Origin: Trissonchulus latispiculum
Taxonomy: Eukaryota > Nematoda > Enoplea > Enoplida > Ironidae
DNA: 64,000 bases
Reading direction: 5' to 3'
Assembly (NCBI GenBank): GCA_030248195.1
Contig: JASAND010012522.1
Coordinates: 42,603 to 106,602, forward strand
The first letter of the stretch is position 1. Each line of letters opens with the position of its first letter. The position numbers and the translations under genes are program-made. The notes beneath the pieces were generated by a model. That model was not told where the DNA came from. It saw nothing but the letters and a program-made list of their open reading frames with translations, and ran no database searches. Below are positions 21,501 to 56,380 of the stretch, one piece after another.

Positions 21501-24500
21501 GGCCCTCCCCCATAAAACGTGCCTAAGGATAAGCCAGCAACGTGACGTGAGTCAAGACTTTTCAAAACATTGTTCCGATTTCCGGAGAATAAAACATCAT
21601 TATAACTTTAGTCGGGCTACGTATGTACTAAAACGACAACTAATCATTGGATAATTAATTAATTTTATTTTATTAATATATAGGAAAGAGAAGAGATAAT
21701 CATTGGATAATTAATTAATTTTATTATATTAATATATAGGAAAGAGAAAAGGTTAGAACGATAGGTACCAATTCAAGACCATACATATAGGCCAATAAGT
21801 GACATAATATGATACATGCATAAAATATCATTGGGTTGCAATTACCCTGTACATGCATGCTACCCAAAACTGAGGAAACGATGGATAACTCATGTGAATC
21901 ACTCACAACTATGTGCTACAGACACAGTCATACAAGTTATGTGCGTTCACTCGCTGACCACTCTGCCAGACTGATACTAGTATTCGGCGGGGGTCGTCAG
22001 TGGCGTACCGACATACTAGTTGCAGCTTTTGGTTTTTTGAGCCCCCTGATTGAAAAGGAATTGAAAAGCGTTTCTGCCCTGTGGTCCCATTCACACGTGT
22101 TGTTTAGTGTATACATGAAAACAAAAAACATAGACCTGACCTCATTGCTGAGACAGGTAAGAGTAAAGTAGAGAGTATTACCAGGCAAGCCTGGTAAGTA
22201 GTACGCACAAGGCGTAATATATCTTGAAATAAGTCAAATAAATACATACATTCTTAATTAATTAGTAAATAATGTGTTCTTACGTTATTTTCATCAGTAA
22301 GTTGGAATTTTTCTTTGATCCATGTTTGTTGTTTAAGTGTTTTGTCTAAGCTGCGTAAGAACATCTTCTTTGAATGTCCTCTATTCAGACAAGTTTCAAA
22401 TAGATCTTTATAGTTTTTTCTGAGACGAATTAATTTGTCATTTATTTCACAGATTCGTGTTAATTGACAGATTATTGTATTTTTCATGATTTTACTGGAT
22501 ATATGAGTCTGCGGGAGGGAATTTGTAAGTACAAAAATCGAAATCATCCCTTTTGTCATACATTTTAGTAGTGAAGTACATTGGCTTCTTTATTACTTGA
22601 ATTAACTTTATTTAGTTCTAAATCTGGGGGGATAAATTTTAGTTTGATTTCTTTCCAAGACGTTGTGGTCATTAATGGTTGTGATATCGTCAATGTATCT
22701 ATATACGTAGATAAGAAATTCAGCCAGGTGTGAATTATGTTTGTCGGTTATAAATTTATGCTCAAAATAGTTTAAGGTTAGATTAGCTATATATAGTTGG
22801 GGCAGCATTTGTTCCCATTGGTATACCAATTTGTTGAAGAAACAATTTGTTGCCCATTGTAAAGTAAGTGTTTTCTATTAAAAACTGTAACATATTTATA
22901 ATATAGGTTTCAGTGTATGTAGTATATTTAGGCGCACCGTTTCCCCAATACGCTTTGCCATATCGTATATGAATACGGTTAGTCACTTCGTTGTTTATTA
23001 TATGGCTTAAAGCAGAAATGATAGTGTTATGTGGCAATGTAGCATACAAGGTATATAGTAAAGTCGTAAGTATTAATTGTTTTGGCCGTTTTATTTCCAT
23101 TTAACTGTTTTAATGTTTTTAGTATAGGCTTATTGCTATCGATGATCCAAAAAGGATTACAGTTTGTAGTACACTCTAATATTTTACTTCGCCTTTTTCT
23201 ACTTATGGAAATAAGCTTGAGTATTTTATCTAGAGTAATGGAGAGAGGACTACAAGAAGTGTTACGACTAGCTATTATAGTTCTGAATTTTATAGGAGTT
23301 TTATGAAATTTTGGAATTATATAGATAAATGGTAGTTTGTTGTTGTCATTACAGCTGATATTAAGAGATTTACAAAATGCATTTATTTTATTTATTATAC
23401 TATTTTCATTATCTGGTTGAATTTCAAGATAAGTGTTGTTGTTTGTAGTATTTAGTATTCCTAGTTCCTTAAACACAGAATAAATGTAAAATTCTTTACA
23501 AATGATAGCTATATTTTGTGAGGCCTTATCTACAGGAGTAAACACAAATTTTTCCTTATAACTGCTTAATAAGTTATGTAAGTCGTATGTTTGATATGGG
23601 CTATAATCAATAGTAACATTCTTTATGAAAGACGAAATTTCTGTTTTTACCTTATTACCCCATATATGCAGCTTTCGATTATCCCAATGATATTTCCTGA
23701 TTATTTTTTCAATATATTTATTGATTCCTTCATAAGTCCGCTCCGATGGATTCCGCTTTGCCGCAGTGGAGCGGCTTACCGAGCGAAGAGAAGATGGTTC
23801 CGTCTGGATTATCACTCCGAAGCTCAACACAAAATGGAATTCAACCCTGTGGTTTCCCCGCTGTCCAGCACCCCAACCTGCCCCCGGTGGACCGTCGGGT
23901 TTTTGGTAGGAGGGCCCGGTAGACCGGTGTACTGGGCCCTCCTTCTTCTCCTAGCCGGCGACATCGAGAGAAACCCCGGTCCCCCCAATCCCAGATGGCC
24001 ATGCGCTACATGTGGCCAAGCTGTCCGCCGGTCCCAGTACTCCATCCTATGCACTCTGTGCGATCAGTGGGCTCATGCGGGCCGATGCGCAGGCCTGTCT
24101 GTTCACGCCTTGAGGTCCCTTTCAGATCACCAAATCAGTGAGTACGCCTGCCCGTCTTGTTCTACTCCTCCACTGGCAAGGCAACCGACGCCAGTGACCC
24201 CTGGCCCCCTCAACACCGCTGACCGGGCCGGTCCCCCCCAGTCCAGCAGACCCTCCCAACCAGCCCAACTCCCCAAATCAGGTCAGCCCTCCCGCCCACA
24301 CCCCTGGTCCGGCTGTCAGGCCAAATCAACCTGACCGCCCCCACCCATCTAACCCTCTACCTCAGGGGGCACAGTCGCCTGGGCTGCCGCCCAAAAGGAA
24401 AGGAACATTAAGGATAATGCAATGGAATATTGGGACAGTCACTACAGCCAAGAAGGCTTTCCTGGCTAAATACTGCAATGATCTCCAGGTGGACATTGTA

Positions 24501-27500
24501 CTACTACAGGAAACCTGGTTGAAACCGGGCGTTGACATCGGACTACCTGGCTTTTCGGAAGAGACCCAGTCTAGAAGGCAAGGAAGGCAGCCGGGTCTTG
24601 TCATTGGTGGCGGGGTTGCTACCTGCATCCGCGCAGGTCTGCCCTATGTCAGGAATACCAGACCCTACCTAGCCCCAAACGATACCACCTCTGATCTGGT
24701 TGCTGTCGAACTTCAAGCAGCTGGCGGCCCAATTTCTGTTGTCAACCTGTATATACCGCCGATCACCCGTGCTGCTGAGGATGCCCGACAGCAGAATTTC
24801 GACCCAGACTTTTTGCCAAGCCATCCACGAACTGTTGTCGCCGGCGACTTCAACTGTCACTCAGAAGCCTGGGACAAGAACCAACCGACTGACCAGAGAG
24901 GAGAAGAATTGCTTGACTGGATCGCGAACAATGCAATGGTGGTTGCCAACACTGGAGATCCAACTAGGGTGAACCCACAAACTGGTGGGGTATCAGCACC
25001 CGATGTGACCCTCCTGCACTCAGACTGGGACCTGAGAAGTTCCTGGACTGTTTTGGAAGAATCATTATCGGATCATAACCCAATTGTCCTGGATCTACAT
25101 ACTGGCAACCCAGTCCCGATCACCAAGCCCCCCAGGTTTCGCTGATACAAAAAGGCTAACTGGGCAATGTTTGAACAGAAGCTGGATGCTCTGCTAGTGG
25201 ATGCTAACGTCCAGCAACTGACCAACGTGCACACCCTGAACAAGGTCCTCACCAATGCCATCACCACAGCCGCCAAGGAAGCTGTCCCAACTAACAGAAG
25301 GAAACAGCCAAAGCCCTGGTGGAGTGATGAACTGTCAACCATGTTGGTGGACGTTAAGCAGAAGAAACGGAAGATGATTGATACGAAATCTGAGCTGGAC
25401 CGGCAGGCTTGGATACAGGCTGTCAGAAATCTGAAACAGCAAATCCGTGAAAGCAAACGTCAGCACTGGATGGGATTCGCCTCTACGCTAAGTGCCAGGA
25501 CCAATCCGGCTGAAGTAATGAGAGTCATCCATGCGCTGGAAGGAAAGAAGGCCGAGAGAAGCTCTGGTCCTGCCATTAAGAAGGGTACGAAGACTCTCGC
25601 GTCGGACAAGTCCAAGGCAGAAGGATTTGTATCAGAATATGCAGCTGTAAGCAGATTCCAGTCATGTAAGGAAGACCGGAAAACGAAGAAGAAACTTTAT
25701 GCCAAGCTGAAGAAGACCTGCAATTGCGAAGAATCCGGAATTCTGTGCATGGACTTCACTCAGACAGAGCTCAGACTAGCCAAACAACAACTGAAACTTG
25801 GGAAAGCGGCTGGGCCGGATGAAATTGACAATGAATTGCTCCTCAGGCTCACTCCGCTCGCTGATGCCACCCTGCTAAAGCTATTCAACCTGTCCTGGCA
25901 CTCCGCAGTTGTACCTACCCAGTGGCGGCGTGCAACTATAATTCCGATCCTGAAGAAGGGCAAGCCAAAGGACCAAATTGGTTCCTTCCGCCCTATTAGC
26001 CTTACTAGCTGTCTTGCCAAGTTGATGGAAAAGCTAGTAAAAGACCGCCTCCTGTACTGGCTGGAAAGGAACAACCTTCTGTCCCCTGATCAAGCTGGAT
26101 TCAGATCCCTCAGAGCCACGGAAGACCAGGTGATCAAGTTAACTCAAACCATCGTCGACGGATTTCGGAGTCGTAAACCGGCTAAACGCACTGTGCTAGC
26201 ACTCATCGACTTCCAAAGGGCGTTCGACACGGTCTGGCGGACTGGCCTGCTATTGAAAATGGTCAAAAATGGAATTCCTGTGTGCTGCATCAAATGGGTG
26301 AAGAGTCTTCTCAGCGACAGAATGGCCAGAGTGAAGATCGGAAGTGACACCAGCAGGTGGAGAACAATGCGGGAAGGAGTCCCCCAAGGCAGTGGACTCT
26401 CTCCACTTCTTTTTGTCATTTTCATCAACGATATTGCCCAGGATCTCCCCCCGGGAGTCGAGATCAGCCTCTTTGCAGACGACCTAGCTATTTGGAGTCA
26501 GGACAGTAAGCTCGCAGAGGCCTCTGCTAAGCTTCAAGAAGCTCTTGATGCTATAGATCGATGGTCCAAGAAGTGGAAACTAGGAATCAATGTGGGCAAG
26601 TCCGAGTATACTACCTTCAGCACATACAACAAGGAAGCGAGTCAGCGATTGAACCTTCGGCTCAGCGGCCAAGATCTGCCCTTCAATCCAACTCCCACTT
26701 TTCTGGGAGTAAAGTTCGACAGACTGCTGAATTTTGGACCCCACGTCAACTCCTTGAAATCCAAAGCTTGGCCACGGCTGCAGGCAATGTCTCGTCTTGC
26801 CGGCACAAATTGGGGTTGTGCTAAAGAAGATCTCCGGCTGGTCTATTTGTCCTATATCCGGTCCACCTTGGAATACTGCGCCTCAGCTTGGATGCCATGT
26901 GCCTCTAGAACCCACCAGCTTTCCGTCGAAAAGATCCAAAATCAGGCAGCACGAATCATTTCTGGATGCTATCGAGCTGCTCCTGTCGAAGCCCTCCAAC
27001 TGGAGGCTAACCTGATCCCGTTTAGCCTCAGAGCCAATGAACTTACTGCAGCAGCCTACGAAAAGTCTGCCCGGTTACCTCCCAACAACCCAAGATCCAG
27101 GCTGTGGCAGCCGCTGGCGGCTGAGCGAAACCTCCAGAGTCAACCATCTTGGAGGCAGAAAGGCAGACTGATGGCGGAGGCCACCGGACTGGCCCAACTT
27201 CCTAGAGAGCCACTCTGCGATGTATCACAGCTCCATCCACAAAGTCGATCTATTCCGGTAACCATATATCCCGATCTGCTGGCAGAAACTGTGAGATCAG
27301 ACGACGCAGCTTTGAGGAAAGCTGCTGCGGAAGCAACTCTCCAGGCTCGTCCCGCTCCCAATATCAGGGTTTTGACGGATGGAGCTGCGAAGGATGGAAC
27401 AACTGACGGAGGTTCCGGTGTTCTGCTGGAATTCGAAAACGGTCAAGATCCTGTCCAACTCAGCTTTCCAGCGGGCAAATTCTGTTCTAGCTTTCGAGCA

Positions 27501-30500
27501 GAGATGTTGGCGCTAAGCAAGGCACTAGACTGGATATTCGACAGAGGAGAAGACTTCTGGAAGGACCAAACCATTGCAATCTACACTGACTCCCAGTCAC
27601 TAACCAAGCTCCTGAAGGCCGGAGTCAGAGCTACATTCAACCCTTTATTCAACAATGTCAGATCCAAACTCACGGAGATCGGCAGGCGTGCAAACTTATA
27701 CATCCAATGGATCCCCGGGCATGCCGGCCTACGAGGAAATGAAGAAGCAGATTCCCTTGCCAAGCAGGGTTGCTCATTGGCCCAAACCGACGTCCCTGTT
27801 GAGTATGGCGACGCCAGAGCAGCCATCAAACGGGCCGTCAAATCCTCCTGGTTGACCGGCATCTCCCACGGCACCACTCTCCAAATCTACGGGACCCGTG
27901 GACCAGTGCCGCCGGAAGCGGAATCGGGTCTCGCAAAGAAGGAGCGGGTGCTTCTCTCCCAACTCAGGACCGGCAAATCCCTCCTCCTTGCGCAATATAG
28001 ACATACTATCAATCCAACCACCCAACCTTCCCCCCTTTGCCCACAATGCGGGGAAGAGGAGGAGGATCTGGGGCATCTTCTCCTCCGATGCCCCAGGTAT
28101 ACTAGATCCAGGTATAATATCCTGGGTCCCTCACCCAACCTCTCTGTCCTCCGGGTTGCCCCTGGCCAGGTGCTGGACTTCTTGCGGGATAGTGGTCTGG
28201 TTGCTTAATCAGGCCGCCGTTTATGGATATCCACAACGACCACCAAATCAACAACAACAACATTCCTTCATAAGTATCCTTAATAGTTTGTAGTTTGCAA
28301 GATTTTTGTGGAATTCTATACTTAGGACCCTTACTGAACAAGGATTCTAATGTATCATTTTCTAATACTTTATAATTACCAGTAATTATATGGTTGTGAA
28401 CTTCCCCCTTCACAGAAACGTCCACCAAATCGCATGCCATTCATCAGTCCTTACTCCTTACCCACTGCGAGAATGTTTCCATTCCAACTGCGTGATAGGC
28501 CGACACCGGTTCCCATAGGGACTGCCCCCACCCCCACCGGCACCCCCTTTGGTACCAGTACCCCCATTTTCCGTCCTACTGCCGCTGACAGTCGTAGTCG
28601 TGCTGCCGGTGGACGCCCCAGGCTTACGACTATGCGGTCGGATCGTCTGAAGGGGTTTCTGGAAATTTTTGACACTCCATGTGGTCAGAGAGCCGTCCCC
28701 ATGGGCACACATAAACTGCTTTCCCTCATAGTGCCAGGCCAGACCCAGTAAAGCCTAAACAAAACAAAACATGACTTAAATCACTGCATAATATTGTATA
28801 TACGTAAACCCAATGCATGCGCACATTTACACTGGTTAGCAGGCGATAAATGCTCCTTCGTCGCATGTAAAATACATATGAATTCACAGGCAGGTCTTAC
28901 ATACACGGAACGGAGCAGGTCTTACATACACGGAACGGAAACTAATGTAAAAATGCATATGAGTTTTGTAGTGAGGTTGTAAATTAAGGAAAACAACAAG
29001 TTGCAACCACCGCTTATGCGTCTGTCCCACAAAAGGAGGCTCATATTGGCGTCATAGCCCAGCGTTCTATTTGCTAAGACAACAGACAGAGCTGGTAGTC
29101 TTCAGTCATCTTACTATAAGATGCTGATTTCATGGTTCCGAGCATACATTAACACGGGGTCCGATTCTGGGGGGGGTCTACCCCGACCTCGGGCAAGGGG
29201 TCCACCCCTGAAAAAATCCAAAATTTTAAGGGGGTATGCCCCGAAATTAACAAAAATTCCGAATTTTTAAGCTTTTTGACCAAAAATTAGCAAAAAACGG
29301 CAATTTTTAGCGATTTTTAAGAAATTTTTTGAAAAAAATGGCTAAAATTTGCTAAAAAATTACAAATTTTCACTGAAAATTGCTGAGGGGTCTACCCTTT
29401 TTTCCTTTCTGGACGAGAGGGTCTGCCCTTTTTTCCTTTTCGCTGAGGGGGTCTACCCGTTTTTTGTCGGTCTGGGGGGGTCTGCACCCCCCCCCATTCC
29501 CCCCCCCCACGTTATCCTATGGTTCCGAGTAGATAAGCGTCTCAATTCAAACCTGTACTCTGTGGCACACGTTCAGTAGATGCCGCAGTTCACCCCTCCC
29601 CCCGTTCGGCCCACAAGCCAAACCCACTTACCGTATCCAGGGTGAGTCGTTGTTCGCCTTGCCGTGTCTTTAGGTCCCACAGGACCACCATGCCCTTCTC
29701 AAAGCCAACCAGCAGCTGAAACAAACAAACAAAGAAAATTAAATTTGAAACTCGGGTAAACAATCACCATCTCTAAACGCTGGCGACCTCAATGGCATAA
29801 ATCCGAAACTCTTAAAAAATCAGGTAAAATCCGCAAAGCAAAGTAAAGCAACATAATACCTGATTTCCAAGGCTCAACCTTTTGTAAAGAATTTTGTAAA
29901 AAAAATTCGTCATGTTTTTGCAAAAACTACATTTTTTATGATAGCATCGACATGATAGCATTAAGATGATTACAATGCCACGAATAATCGGCCTCGTTGA
30001 GACCTTCAAATTGAAACCCTTACCCTGGATTGCAGAAAAATAAGATTAGGACTAATTCCGGATTAGCAGAGGACTAAGTACTGGTTTCCCATTCAAAAAT
30101 TGGACTTTGTCCTCCGCTAATCCGTAGTTAGTTCTAATCTTATTTGGTGCAATCCAGGGTAAGTTTAATTTTAACGGCTTGCGTAGCTCAAGAAATGGTG
30201 GATTATTTGATCTCTCCAAAAATGACAAGTTTTCAACGCCAAAATCAGCTATAGAGAAAAGCTAGAAAGGTGCTTCAATATGCAAAAATCTATAGCTCAG
30301 CAAGATCTTTCGAATGAATATAATCATAGCAATGCAGCTACTGTCTAAGTTTCAAAAATTGGCAAAACGGCCGGGCTAAAAGAACTTATTCTGAAAAGTT
30401 TCATCAAATTTCAGCTTGATTTGAAACGTAAACCAATATGTGCCCACTTGCTTAATTCAATATTCAATTTAAGCTCATTCATTACAACCGATCACTTTTT

Positions 30501-42654: not shown

Positions 42655-43485
42655 TTAGACCGAATAGCGAGGAAAGTCGGGGACAGCTTGACCTTCCTGA
42701 TAGTGTATTTCCTGGATCAGAGCAATATCTATACTGCAGTCCAGCAGTTTCTTCCTGAGCCACGGCAATTTGCTGTTCAAGCGGCCTGCATTCCACTGCA
42801 GTATTCGGAGACAGTCCGACCGCCGTTGGCGTTGAGCACCGGCAGCGATATTGGCGGTTACCACCGGGGCTCCCGGACCCGTGGGAGGTCGTATTCGGTT
42901 GAGATCAACAGGGGCTGCGGGTGCCGCAGCAGCGGGGGTAGCTGGATGGTTGGCCCGCCGTCGCACCGTTAGCAGCAACAGCTACAGGGTTAGCAGGGTA
43001 GAGAGAGGGAGCAGTGCCTTGGGAGGGTTTGGGGCGGAGTGGAGGGGGAGAGGGAGACTGGTTGGGACGGTTGTCGCAGACCGGGCAAAGCCAGACAGTG
43101 TGGTATTCCCTGAAGGCAGTCAGTCCTGAGCAAGGTTTCAGGTGGACCCAAAGATTAGACAGGTTACACCTGACACAGTTCTTAGGAGCGTTTCTGTCGC
43201 AGACCGGGCAGGGCCATTTGGGTACAGGTCCCGGGTTTTCCTCAATGTCCCCAGCCATCAACAGTATGCGGCCCCAGTAGGCTGGTTTACCAGGGCCGCC
43301 AGACAAAAGCCCGGCTGGGCAGGGGGAGGCCAGGGCTTTCCAATACCGGGAGGGTTTCCCGCTTTCGGGTAATGGCTCCACCAGGAGCCAGGGAGTGGGA
43401 AGCCATTCGTTGCCATTCTCTCCGGAAAGACCAGGGGAAAACGGGTTCTGCCAGTCCACCACGGCAAGGTGCTTCCAAGGACCAG
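42655..43485 (-). pseudogene. LINE B leader, 2A, PHD-like finger and endonuclease start
   Basis: Leader with GGPGKPAYWGRILLMAGDIE then the 2A core, CPVCDRNAPKNCVRC, NLWVHLKPCSGL and WLCPVC (PHD-like), Pro/Ala-rich linker, then ILQWNAGRLNSKLPWLRKKL and IDIALIQEIHY. The frame changes near 42,950-42,980, and the middle of the endonuclease (42,281-42,655) is in several frames. Confidence 0.85.
43226..43279 (-). other. 2A-like ribosome-skipping sequence in LINE B
   Basis: Core D-I-E-E-N-P-G-P at 43,226-43,249, preceded by GRILLMAG. Exact consensus match. Confidence 0.9.
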
Positions 43486-44560
43486 CCCTGGTTCATCAGC
43501 TGGCCTGCCAGGTTCCCATGTAGGGGAGTGTCCATTAAAGTCTCCGCCGATGACAACATTCGGGCCAGTCGGAATGTAGGAAGGATTGAAGTGCTGTGTC
43601 CGAGCCTCTACCACCTGACGCTGTATAGGCGGTACATAGGCATTAACCACCGTAACGTCCCCTTCTTTCAAGTGGAGTCTCACTCCTAGAATGTCACTGC
43701 TGTTATCATCCGGGGCCGTCAGAGGGGTCCGGATTCTGGTATATTTGATGCCCTTCCTTATCAGTGTACATAAGTACTCCGCCACCTTTAGGGGGCATCC
43801 CGGCTGCCCTGCCAGTCCTTCGGTTCTCCCATTCGGCAGAGAAGCCTGCGAGGTTTGGGGGCTTGGAGGCATCTGTGAAGTGAGATTCCTGAATTAGAGC
43901 GATGTCGATTTCCAGATCCGTTATAGTTTTCTCAATCCAGGCGGCCTTCCTGTTGTACCCTCCAGCATTCCACTGCCAGAAGCGAAGGGGTTTCATGCTT
44001 TGGCGAAGGTCCGGGGTGTTGCTGGTTGTGACTGACGGGGTGCTGGAGGGAGGGGTAATAGGTGCCTGTGTTGGTGGGGGGATGTGTGTAGGGTAGTTGG
44101 GGGAAAGGCTGCAGCAGCAGCCATAGCTATTGGGCTAGAGCCCGACACTTGTAGGGCAGTTGGAGGGGGAGTTGATTGTAGGCAGGTTGGGCATAGCCAG
44201 CCCCTGGCATATGCTTTGAGATTGCGCAGTCCTGAGCATTTGAGATGGACCCAACCATTGCAGGCTTCACAGAGAACGCAGTTACTTCTGGCGTTGTCAC
44301 CGCATACGGGACATGGCCACCGCGGCCCCGGTTTGGGGTCTGGGTTATGCTCGACGTCTCCAGCCAATAGTAGTTGTAAGGAAACAAGTATATATGCAGC
44401 ATATATCTGCCTTAGCTACAGTAGTAGAATGAGACGCCAGTAGGCTGGATTACCAGCGTCTCCACCCAAAAACCCTGCCGATTCCAGAGTGGGTGGACGG
44501 GGTCCTCTGGGGACATCGATTTGTGGGGTCTCCGTTCCAGGAGAAAAGCTCATAAGCCCC
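43486..44560 (-). pseudogene. LINE C leader, eroded 2A, PHD-like finger, endonuclease start
   Basis: GGDAGNPAYWRLILLL (ends about 44,415), then a short AT-rich insertion with a GCAGATATATGCTGC near-palindrome, then AGDVEHNPDP, CPVCGDNARSNCVLC, WVHLKCSGL, and from 43,996 MKPLRFWQWNAGGYN, IDIALIQESHF, and (43,500-43,870) VVNAYVPPI and GGDFNGHSPTW. Confidence 0.85.
44335..44367 (-). other. mutated 2A-like sequence in LINE C
   Basis: Reads D-V-E-H-N-P-D-P; the invariant Gly is Asp. This change is known to abolish 2A activity. The leader is also split by a short insertion at about 44,368-44,414. Confidence 0.85.
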
Positions 44561-54214: not shown

Positions 54215-56380
54215 TTACTCCAAATGAATGCGAACGGAATAACAACAATACAACTGCATAACAAGCGAAAATATTAGAAACTGAAAATCATGAACACGTA
54301 GAAAACTGACCAAGACATCACTTTCATTTAATCCATTCTTAAATTCAGTAATGTGTTTACTTAATTCAATCGACTCCGGTAAAGCATTCCAGGGTTTGAG
54401 TACTCGGCAAGCAAAAGAAAATTTATGAATATCAGTATACAATTTTGGAATTTTCAATTTAAGCAAATGACCTCTCGTAGCATAAGGCGAATCCACAAAA
54501 TTGAACAAATCAGGTGGCAAGTATAATCGTGTAATCATACATTATTTTATACACCATAACTAGGTCAGTAATTAAACGTCTTAATTCAAGAGATGGAAGA
54601 GAGAGAATAGCACACTTATCTTTATAAGAATAACCTTCAAAAAATGCAAAAGACGAGCAAAATCTTTTTTGAACCTTTTCAATAGTTTCAATGTCTTTTT
54701 TTAACCAAGGGTTCCATATTTCGTACGCATAAGACAAAGTTGGAATAACATACGCTTTATATAATTTCATACTAAGTTGTATATTATCAAAAACAAAGTT
54801 ATTTAGTGATAAGGATAAAACAGACATTGCTTTATTTTTATTAAAATTAAAAAATAAATAAAATAAATTTAAATTTTGTTGATATGAATCGCAAATTTTA
54901 AATTCTCCGTAACCCAGACACCTAGATCTGAGTAGCCATATACTTTCTTAAGAATCTCGTTTTGAAAAAAATACTGAAGTTTTTCATTTGAACGGCCGAT
55001 GTACAGAATTACAGTTTTAGGAATCGAGACAGTTAATTGCCATTCGTTGACGCAATTTTGTAACCTATTAAACAAAGACTGCAAGGTTCTGTGACGATTC
55101 ATCCCCGAAGCAAAAAACTTAATATCATCGGCATATGCACAACAATGTATATTCTTGCACGCATGCAGTAGTTCATTAATAAAAACTAAGAACAAGGTAG
55201 GTCCACATACGGACCCCTGCGGCACACCACTAACGACATCACATCAGTCAGAAAAAGATTCGCTTATTTTAACCCTTTGCCTTCTCCCACACACAAAGGC
55301 TTCGATTATATTTAAGAATTTTTCAGTAATACCATAAGCTTCAAGTCTGACTTTCAATTTCGGAATTGATAGTAAATTAAAAGCTTTTTTAAAGTCTATG
55401 TATGCAATGTCAATGGACTGCTTAGAGTCTATATCTTTAAACCACTGAAAAGAACAGTTTAATAAATATGTAACAGTAGACCTTCCTTTTAAAAACCCAT
55501 GTTGATTTGTCGCAAGTATTTTATTTTTAATGCAATGATTCATAACATGTGTAATGAAAAAGTTTTCGTTTTCGTTTTCGTTTTTCGTTCGCCCAAAAGT
55601 GTCAAAAAATAAGGTTTTTGGGGTCAAATTTTCAAAAATTTTCTCAATTTTTAGCTAATTTATGGACTTATAAGCTCATTTTAAGCTTAAAAACAGCGAT
55701 TTTTTGCGTTTTTACCTTAAAAATGCTAATTTTTCGCTAAAAATTTCGGTATATTTTACTTTTGGCTCGCCCCCCCCCACTTTTCGGAAGCCCCCCCCAC
55801 TTCCCCCTCCCTAGGGGGGGGGCGAAGCCACCCCCCCACTTTCAAAACCCTAAAAAAATGCCAGTATTATGGGGTGCTCTCCGAGCTACCCCATGAATAG
55901 GCACCACATTTGCATCACGCCAACCTTGAGGCACTTGACCAAGATGGTAACAGAAATCAGTAATACAGTATATAGGATAAGCTAATTCTGCAGAAAAAGT
56001 CTTATAGAAGATATACGGAATGTCCTCGGGACCAGCAACTAGAGTAGGTTTCAACCTATATAAAACTTCAAATACATCAAGCACATCAAAGTTCATACGT
56101 TCACAACTAGTCACACACCTATGGACCACAGTTGGCAATCTCCCATCATCATGAGTATAGACTGAGCCAAAAAATTCACATAAAGCTTTACATTTATCCA
56201 TGTCTGATACAGCAGATTGCTGTTGGTCCAGTTTAAGCACAGGGATTTCAGGTAACTTTGAGCTTTTGGTTGGCATGAGCTTTTGGTTGGCATAGAATGA
56301 ATAGAAACATTTTGCTGCCAATTTCTTGCACCCGAAGGAACGGACCCCCCCACCCCCAAGAAGCATACGCTTGTCACACT
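54215..56380 (-). mobile_element. LINE D, decayed CR1/Jockey-type non-LTR retrotransposon
   Basis: RT pieces in coding order: PTLVAGPEDIPYIFYK and VPQGWRDANVVPIH (56,366-55,890); QHGFLKGRSTVTYLLN and IAYIDFKKAF (55,560-55,260); VPQGSVCGPTLFLVFINELL and CAYADDIKFF (55,235-55,100); LYKAYVIPTLSYAYEIW and KDIETIEKVQKRF (54,790-54,650); RGHLLKLKIPKLYTDI and VLKPWNALPE (54,480-54,360). No RNase H after the thumb. Frame shifts and stops between pieces; a C-run element replaces the segment at about 55,571-55,870. It is different from LINEs A-C. Confidence 0.85.
55571..55870. mobile_element. G/C-run insertion in LINE D
   Basis: Separates VVPIH from the QHGF part of the RT. Starts with TTTTCG repeats, has CCCCCCCC and GGGGGGG blocks, and ends next to the hairpin ATGGGGTGCTC...GAGCTACCCCAT (55,865-55,893) that also occurs at 16,785. 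Terminal repeats not resolved. Confidence 0.5.

Follow-up and report, generated by a model that had tools for sequence, protein, structure and literature searches.

A 2A/StopGo sequence at the N-terminus of a LINE in the window (the whole 64,000-nucleotide stretch of DNA analysed) lies beside a conserved frameshift-like pseudoknot in the RNA, and many families of the element are missing an in-frame AUG. 2A sequences in LINEs are of an already known kind; the pseudoknot beside the 2A and the missing AUG merit follow-up. Among the titles and abstract starts listed by a literature search, none links a frameshift signal to a 2A in a LINE, which is weak evidence of absence. We consider it slightly more probable than the reverse that ribosomes enter the main frame by frameshifting and that the 2A then drops the leader, both events being predicted.

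The window element is an APE-type LINE with RNase H, as seen from its endonuclease, reverse transcriptase (RT) and RNase H domains. Open reading frames, a target duplication and Pfam matches delimit a full-length insertion at 23738..28261 on the plus strand, composed in order of a 5' UTR, the 2A, a PHD-like finger, the APE endonuclease, RT, RNase H, a sub-threshold zinc finger and a CAA-repeat tail. The target-site duplication ATTCCTTCATAAGT, 14 bp, flanks it on the plus strand at 23724..23737 (left copy) and 28262..28275 (right copy). The PHD-like zinc finger directly follows the 2A (24002..24160, +; PF00628 with an E-value of 2e-4, below the gathering score, and PHD chains in a PDB sequence search), the APE-type endonuclease lies at 24417..25076 (+; PF03372, PF14529), and an open frame at 25146..28205 (+) holds RT (PF00078) and RNase H (PF00075), its terminal zinc finger being sub-threshold only (PF13966, E 0.05). 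The sequence-only reading had called the element a nearly intact LINE. The 14-bp duplication and the tail of CAA units bear out a full-length insertion, but the copy is damaged twice according to the ORF list, by a change of reading frame in the interval from 24198 to 24334 and by a TGA stop in frame (25143-25145). L006, another copy from this family, is open over 1519 aa. The insertion interrupts a minus-strand ORF at 23027-23734, which may resemble a Penelope-type element; a Pfam search of this ORF gave no match.

The leader with the 2A-like sequence occupies 23834..23983 (+), residues 1-50 counted from AUG 23834, and reads MEFNPVVSPLSSTPTCPRWTVGFLVGGPGRPVYWALLLLLAGDIERNPGP. It contains a core of the 2A/StopGo class, D(V/I)ExNPGP, in the form DIERNPGP at residues 43-50 (23960..23983, +), with a predicted break between Gly49 and Pro50. 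DIERNPGP after a Leu-rich stretch was what had been noticed at 23834-23983 (+) from the sequence alone, and coordinates, frame and residues all proved correct. About 1e-4 occurrences of D[VI]E.NPGP are expected by chance in the six frames of the whole window, where we observed two exact cores and one NPDP variant, each preceding a Cys-rich, finger-like stretch. Pfam called a PHD finger on this stretch in the first window copy (below cut-off) and in the third, and not in the second.

The 734-Mb host assembly was searched with the N-terminal 166 aa, and 150 matches were scored of 1314 candidates. The exact core D[VI]E.NPGP was present in 142 of these 150 copies (85/90 of the first and 57/60 of the others). 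Since such a search favours copies with a good N-terminus, it was repeated with the endonuclease alone, with 150 rows scored of 1832 candidates. Among the scored rows, 59 had an open frame of at least 1000 aa, and 50 of the 59 carried the exact core. Forty of them were copies from the N-terminus search (exact core in 39/40); among the 19 extra copies the exact core was present in 11 and absent in 8. One of these eight has the finger, but the stretch before it is changed; another is cut by a contig end just after the site and begins PNPGPRWPC; the other six have no recognised N-terminal region and are probably truncated at the 5' end. When frames of at least 1400 aa were considered in the same 150 scored rows of 1832, the exact core was found in 32 of 33, the exception being L075 with NQGP; three of the 33 frames contain one TGA. 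Conservation of the motif among related LINE copies had been proposed as a check, and the result shows that the motif does not vary freely.

At the four-fold sites of the core codons, compared between pairs of 16 family representatives, the third base was common in 113 of 394 comparisons, which is about random, and D, E, N, P, G and P of the core were unchanged across these representatives. Because the synonymous sites of the core are saturated and its amino acids constant, selection acts on the peptide, and by this codon comparison the 2A/StopGo sequence at the LINE N-terminus is kept by selection on amino acids. A 2A that is present but inactive, a relic, is conceivable in so far as a matching core does not guarantee activity, according to the excerpt of PMC11512398; given the amino-acid constraint beside saturated synonymous sites and the retention of the core in the endonuclease-found frames of at least 1400 aa, we regard a relic as extremely improbable.

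Outside this genome, 15 of the 120 proteins listed among 414 matches carried the core in their first 400 residues, with D, G, C or N allowed first; many of these 120 have no N-terminus. At least seven further listed relatives have H at the third core position (counted by eye), and several relatives with the core have a Cys-rich stretch after it. A protein database search with the 166-aa N-terminus returned 68 candidates, none of them scored, and a search of IMG/VR for relatives of the RT returned none. 2A/StopGo sequences of APE-type LINEs were reportedly the subject of Odon 2013 and the 2A sequence in L1Tc that of Heras 2006; L1Tc is said to carry its 2A at the N-terminus, ahead of endonuclease, RT and RNase H. 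The N-terminal placement of the 2A had been thought unusual. The excerpt of PMC4981915 describes LINE 2A sequences as internal; in sea-urchin NLRs, however, it has the 2A signals following a Leu-rich stretch right at the protein's N-terminus, so that the position itself is known.

The upstream context LLLLLAG-D matches, in a by-eye comparison with section 10 of PMC12846837, the L-rich upstream class of StopGo sequences, which in that section is LLLLSG-like and ends in (A/S/C)G before D. The Leu-rich stretch therefore seems to be a better fit to this class than to a conserved signal peptide. It had been suggested that the released leader may be a signal for one fraction of the protein; on such a reading the leader is a signal sequence and the unskipped protein enters the secretory pathway (dual targeting), for which the excerpt of PMC4981915 provides a precedent in sea-urchin NLR proteins. 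The hydrophobic run, 11 residues long in the window family and most other families, would suit this role, but R, Q or E break it in six families (N2-N6 and SF2) and likewise in window copy 2; it is shortened to 8 in SF6, and it was short or charged in the eight leaders of outside relatives that were compared. An uninterrupted hydrophobic core across families, the mark of a secretory dual-targeting 2A, was thus not found, although the window leader itself has its 11-residue run. The residues upstream of GFL are neither conserved between families nor held in one frame, and skipping itself needs the Leu tract according to PMC12846837 and PMC4981915; in the latter, changes of the Leu tract in sea-urchin 2A signals cut skipping and had no discernible effect on localisation. 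A signal sequence is therefore very unlikely in our judgement, though the leader of the window copy itself might act as one. Compared with the sea-urchin signals, the LINE also differs in that some of its families lack an intact hydrophobic run and in that a large part of what is conserved in the leader is constrained as RNA.

The sequence-only reading, in its account of the leader, had passed over this RNA signal beneath it. GGGTTTTT, a candidate slippery sequence at 23897..23904 (+), was present in 132 of 149 copies, and it is followed by a 14-bp stem 1 (5' strand 23908..23921, 3' strand 23930..23943, both +) supported by pairing and covariation between families. An H-type pseudoknot arises where the 8-nt loop of stem 1 pairs with the Ala-Gly codons that immediately precede the core. 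The 5' strand of stem 2 (23924..23928, +) lies in this loop, and the 3' strand (23954..23958, +) ends one nucleotide before the 2A core; stem 2 covaries and was complete in 131 of the 136 copies in register. The rules for -1 frameshifting, as given in the excerpt of PMC8777194, are an X_XXY_YYZ heptamer and a structure 5-9 nt downstream. GGGTTTT, a heptamer of this form, was found in 135 of 149 copies, and the spacer from slip to stem is approximately 4-6 nt, falling to 4 nt, below the usual 5-9, if the first A-U pair is counted. GGGTTTTT with the stem and pseudoknot resembles a -1 frameshift signal. The tallies of 149 copies omit L150, and L151-L169 are in none of them.

GGG TTT TTN and the core are spaced 63 nt apart in 86 of 89 copies and 72 nt apart in family N1, whereas the stretch between the 5' end of the element and GGG ranges from 106 to 178 nt, with frame-changing differences within families. 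We compared third bases among the 16 family representatives, a set that omits N1, N4-N6 and window copy 2. The third base of GGG was common in 120/120 comparisons, that of the stem-loop codons in 515/791, that of the Leu codons after the stem in 67/251 and that of the codons after the 2A in 520/1578. When all 136 copies that keep the 63-nt register were counted, whether damaged or not, stem 1 was paired in 1829 of 1904 cells (96.1%) and stem 2 in 674 of 680 (99.1%), a count that omits 13 copies, among them N1, four of other length and one cut by a contig. The varying pair of stem 2 joins two synonymous third positions (GC 98, AU 37, mismatch 1 in the 136 copies), and its covariation rests on few independent events.

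We also analyzed the distinct modules of the first 90 copies, taking 41 of the 44 and omitting three of unequal length. Cells were paired at 98.3% in these 41 modules and at 96.3% in 20 chosen modules, and the pairing values and covariation scores of either set were reached by none of 500 shuffles; for the 20-module set, 7/500 shuffles had at least as many pairs with both partners changed as the natural modules, and 54/500 had at least as many further pair types. In a folding test by family, confined to 87-nt modules without stops, most synonymous shuffles folded less well than the natural codons in 11 of 14 families, and shuffles often matched them in SF5, SF10 and SF11. Six endonuclease-found copies (L164-L169) spell the stem quite differently and retain the pairing. 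Taken together, the comparison of copies indicates that the RNA signal, consisting of GGGUUUUU, the spacer, the 14-bp stem and the H-type pseudoknot, is kept by selection on nucleotides.

The GGG codon is replaced by GTG in N4 and N5 and by GAG in N6; the N6-like L158 keeps GGG, and L043 has no slip sequence. Lineage N4 (L136-L138, L145, L160, L161 and L163) has GTGTTTTT in place of GGGTTTTT and keeps the pseudoknot, and some of its copies have 2A-frame AUGs. This lineage offers a natural experiment on whether the element can do without its slippery site. Other functions considered for the region were rejected: a splice acceptor at TTTTTGNTAG, where the AG is absent in SF3 and SF9 (by eye); a non-AUG start at TTG after TTT, which is TTC in 4 of 16 representatives; and kissing-loop dimerisation through the CCGG palindrome, as non-palindromic CCAG loops still pair with the downstream strand.

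Reading frames were counted in the 127 copies with a complete 5' end, and AUGs within the module after the slip were not counted as 2A-frame starts. A 2A-frame AUG reaching the slip was present in 55 of the 127, the window family included, and 72 had none upstream, so that by this count there is no fixed AUG in the 2A frame across families. In 54 of the 72, a -1 shift at G_GGU_UUU would bring an AUG frame into the 2A frame; 10, chiefly SF4 and L058-L060, could get there from an AUG only by -2; and in 8, six of them SF7, no AUG ORF extends to the slip. The 54 copies of the -1 type are not independent (SF3 20, SF1 14, SF5 8, N1 6), with the SF5 AUG placed just 5 nt upstream of GGG. In 118 of 149 copies, ribosomes that stayed in the frame before a -1 shift would meet a stop within five codons of the slip. 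The cleanest -1 case is L164-L169, where a 36-codon AUG ORF ends GGT TTT TGA at the slip in 6/6; a further AUG directly follows GGGTTTTTG in 4/6 and is absent in 2/6, and L167 and L168 have no AUG besides that of the 36-codon ORF. In the window family, two earlier AUGs in another frame precede AUG 23834; AUG 23834 is itself in the 2A frame, so a frameshift would be unnecessary there. Nearly all of the 55 copies with a 2A-frame AUG still keep the RNA signal, which counts against a need for frameshifting. In SF7 (L052, L063, L064, L080, L081 and L105) no AUG occurs from the 5' end to the slip, and by eye UUG replaces the AUG.

We propose that ribosomes start on the short upstream AUG frames and, on meeting the pseudoknot, may reach the main frame by slipping -1 on G_GGU_UUU (or -2 on G_GUU_UUU). 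Approximately 27 codons after the slip, the 2A peptide would release a short, variable leader at NPG/P. Because the 2A would release the leader, the large protein would begin with Pro and the PHD-like finger regardless of which leader was made. Conservation reveals both a peptide code and an RNA code; from them we infer the shift, the skip and the order of their use. In its full form, the proposal is -1 entry (-2 in some families) from short leader frames at a frame-tolerant GGGUUUUU-pseudoknot that also encodes the StopGo, which in turn removes the leader, all within one cassette of about 90 nt; we would put this at somewhat short of an even chance. To our knowledge, how translation starts in single-ORF LINEs is a largely open question, and the conserved compact cassette would offer a concrete answer to it. 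It would also offer a natural role for an N-terminal 2A, namely trimming the leader left by frameshift-dependent entry. If this is true, two recoding events would be linked by a peptide code and an RNA code that overlap, in a 90-nt module that is directly testable.

The R2 protein has a binding or packaging site in the 5' RNA of its own element. The pseudoknot could be such a site in the present LINE, with ordinary or near-cognate starts in the 2A frame. The 2A-frame AUG in 55/127 complete copies is in line with this idea, as are the UUG that SF7 has (by eye) where others have AUG and the binding of pseudoknotted RNA by the R2 protein in the excerpt of PMC12222951, but the near-invariant GGGTTTTT at a fixed distance and the stops of the -1-type frame at the slip are left unexplained by it. 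We consider a binding site of this kind distinctly unlikely.

The 5' end contains a second RNA candidate, an HDV-like ribozyme. Its P1 helix would be formed by 23738..23744 and 23768..23774 (+) at the exact 5' end, and all 7 bp were paired in 109 of 127 complete copies, a tally lowered by the P1 of family N1 and a few single copies that were read out of register. P1 shows double changes between families, e.g. CTGCTCC/GGAGCAG and CGTCTCC/GGAGATG, and immediately upstream of P1 the flanking sequence varies among copies. A candidate P2 pairs 23748..23754 with 23836..23842 (+), the latter strand overlapping AUG 23834, and a helix of similar length is found in many, not all, families. The position of AUG 23834 within the candidate P2 strand could account for the retention of an AUG-like sequence without retention of its frame. 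An Rfam search of the window 5' region and 18 short loci returned no ribozyme family, and in the window 5' region weak miRNA-type matches cover the hairpin. Folded alone, the 5' UTR stretch had a z of -0.96, which is not unusual.

Ribosomes might also enter independently of an AUG, if the 5' ribozyme and/or the pseudoknot placed them in the 2A frame in an IRES-like manner; GGGUUUUU would then be part of the landing site, and the upstream AUG frames would be irrelevant. HDV-like ribozymes of LINEs have reportedly been linked to translation initiation (Ruminski 2011), the AUG frames differ between and within families over the 106-178 nt from the 5' end to the slip, and SF7 is without any AUG upstream of the slip. 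However, 54 of the 72 complete copies without a 2A-frame AUG carry the frame for a -1 shift, this frame usually stops right after the slip, and the putative entry codon has the structure on its 3' side, the arrangement of a frameshift signal. AUG-independent entry thus seems to us rather unlikely.

The proposed arrangement of frameshift and 2A has partial counterparts in known systems. The L1Tc/ingi elements of trypanosomatids have a 5' HDV-like ribozyme, which in L1Tc is the Pr77 region (excerpt of PMC4035085). LINE 2A elements including L1Tc have the core motif in common with the window LINE, and the Pr77 ribozyme parallels the candidate found here; in contrast, the 2A code here adjoins a covarying pseudoknot behind GGGUUUUU, and many families are without an in-frame AUG. 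Cardioviruses likewise have a StopGo and a frameshift signal within a few dozen codons and a U-rich slippery site, but their shift lies downstream of the StopGo and requires the viral 2A protein (excerpts of PMC8777194 and PMC5009743), whereas in the LINE the slip precedes the core by 21 codons and is accompanied by a pseudoknot. Arteriviruses undergo -2/-1 frameshifting on a slippery XXXUUUUU, and GGGUUUUU would in principle permit both -1 and -2 re-pairing; arteriviruses, however, use a C-rich motif and proteins in the excerpt of PMC6675879. HeT-A is a non-LTR telomeric element whose expression needs a frameshift, but this lies in a Gag-like gene, and the excerpt of PMC5009743 mentions no 2A.

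The window contains other retroelement sequences. A diverged copy 2 of the LINE at 43226-43315 on the minus strand reads DIEENPGP and has GGGCTTTT instead of GGGTTTTT, with the stem and pseudoknot kept in different letters. Copy 3, at approximately 44335-44500 on the minus strand, reads DVEHNPDP; GGGTTTTT and the stem are present, and an insert of about 45 nt with a stop separates the stem-loop from the core. A fragment of another reverse transcriptase (PF00078) lies at 54872-55243 on the minus strand and is part of a further retroelement.
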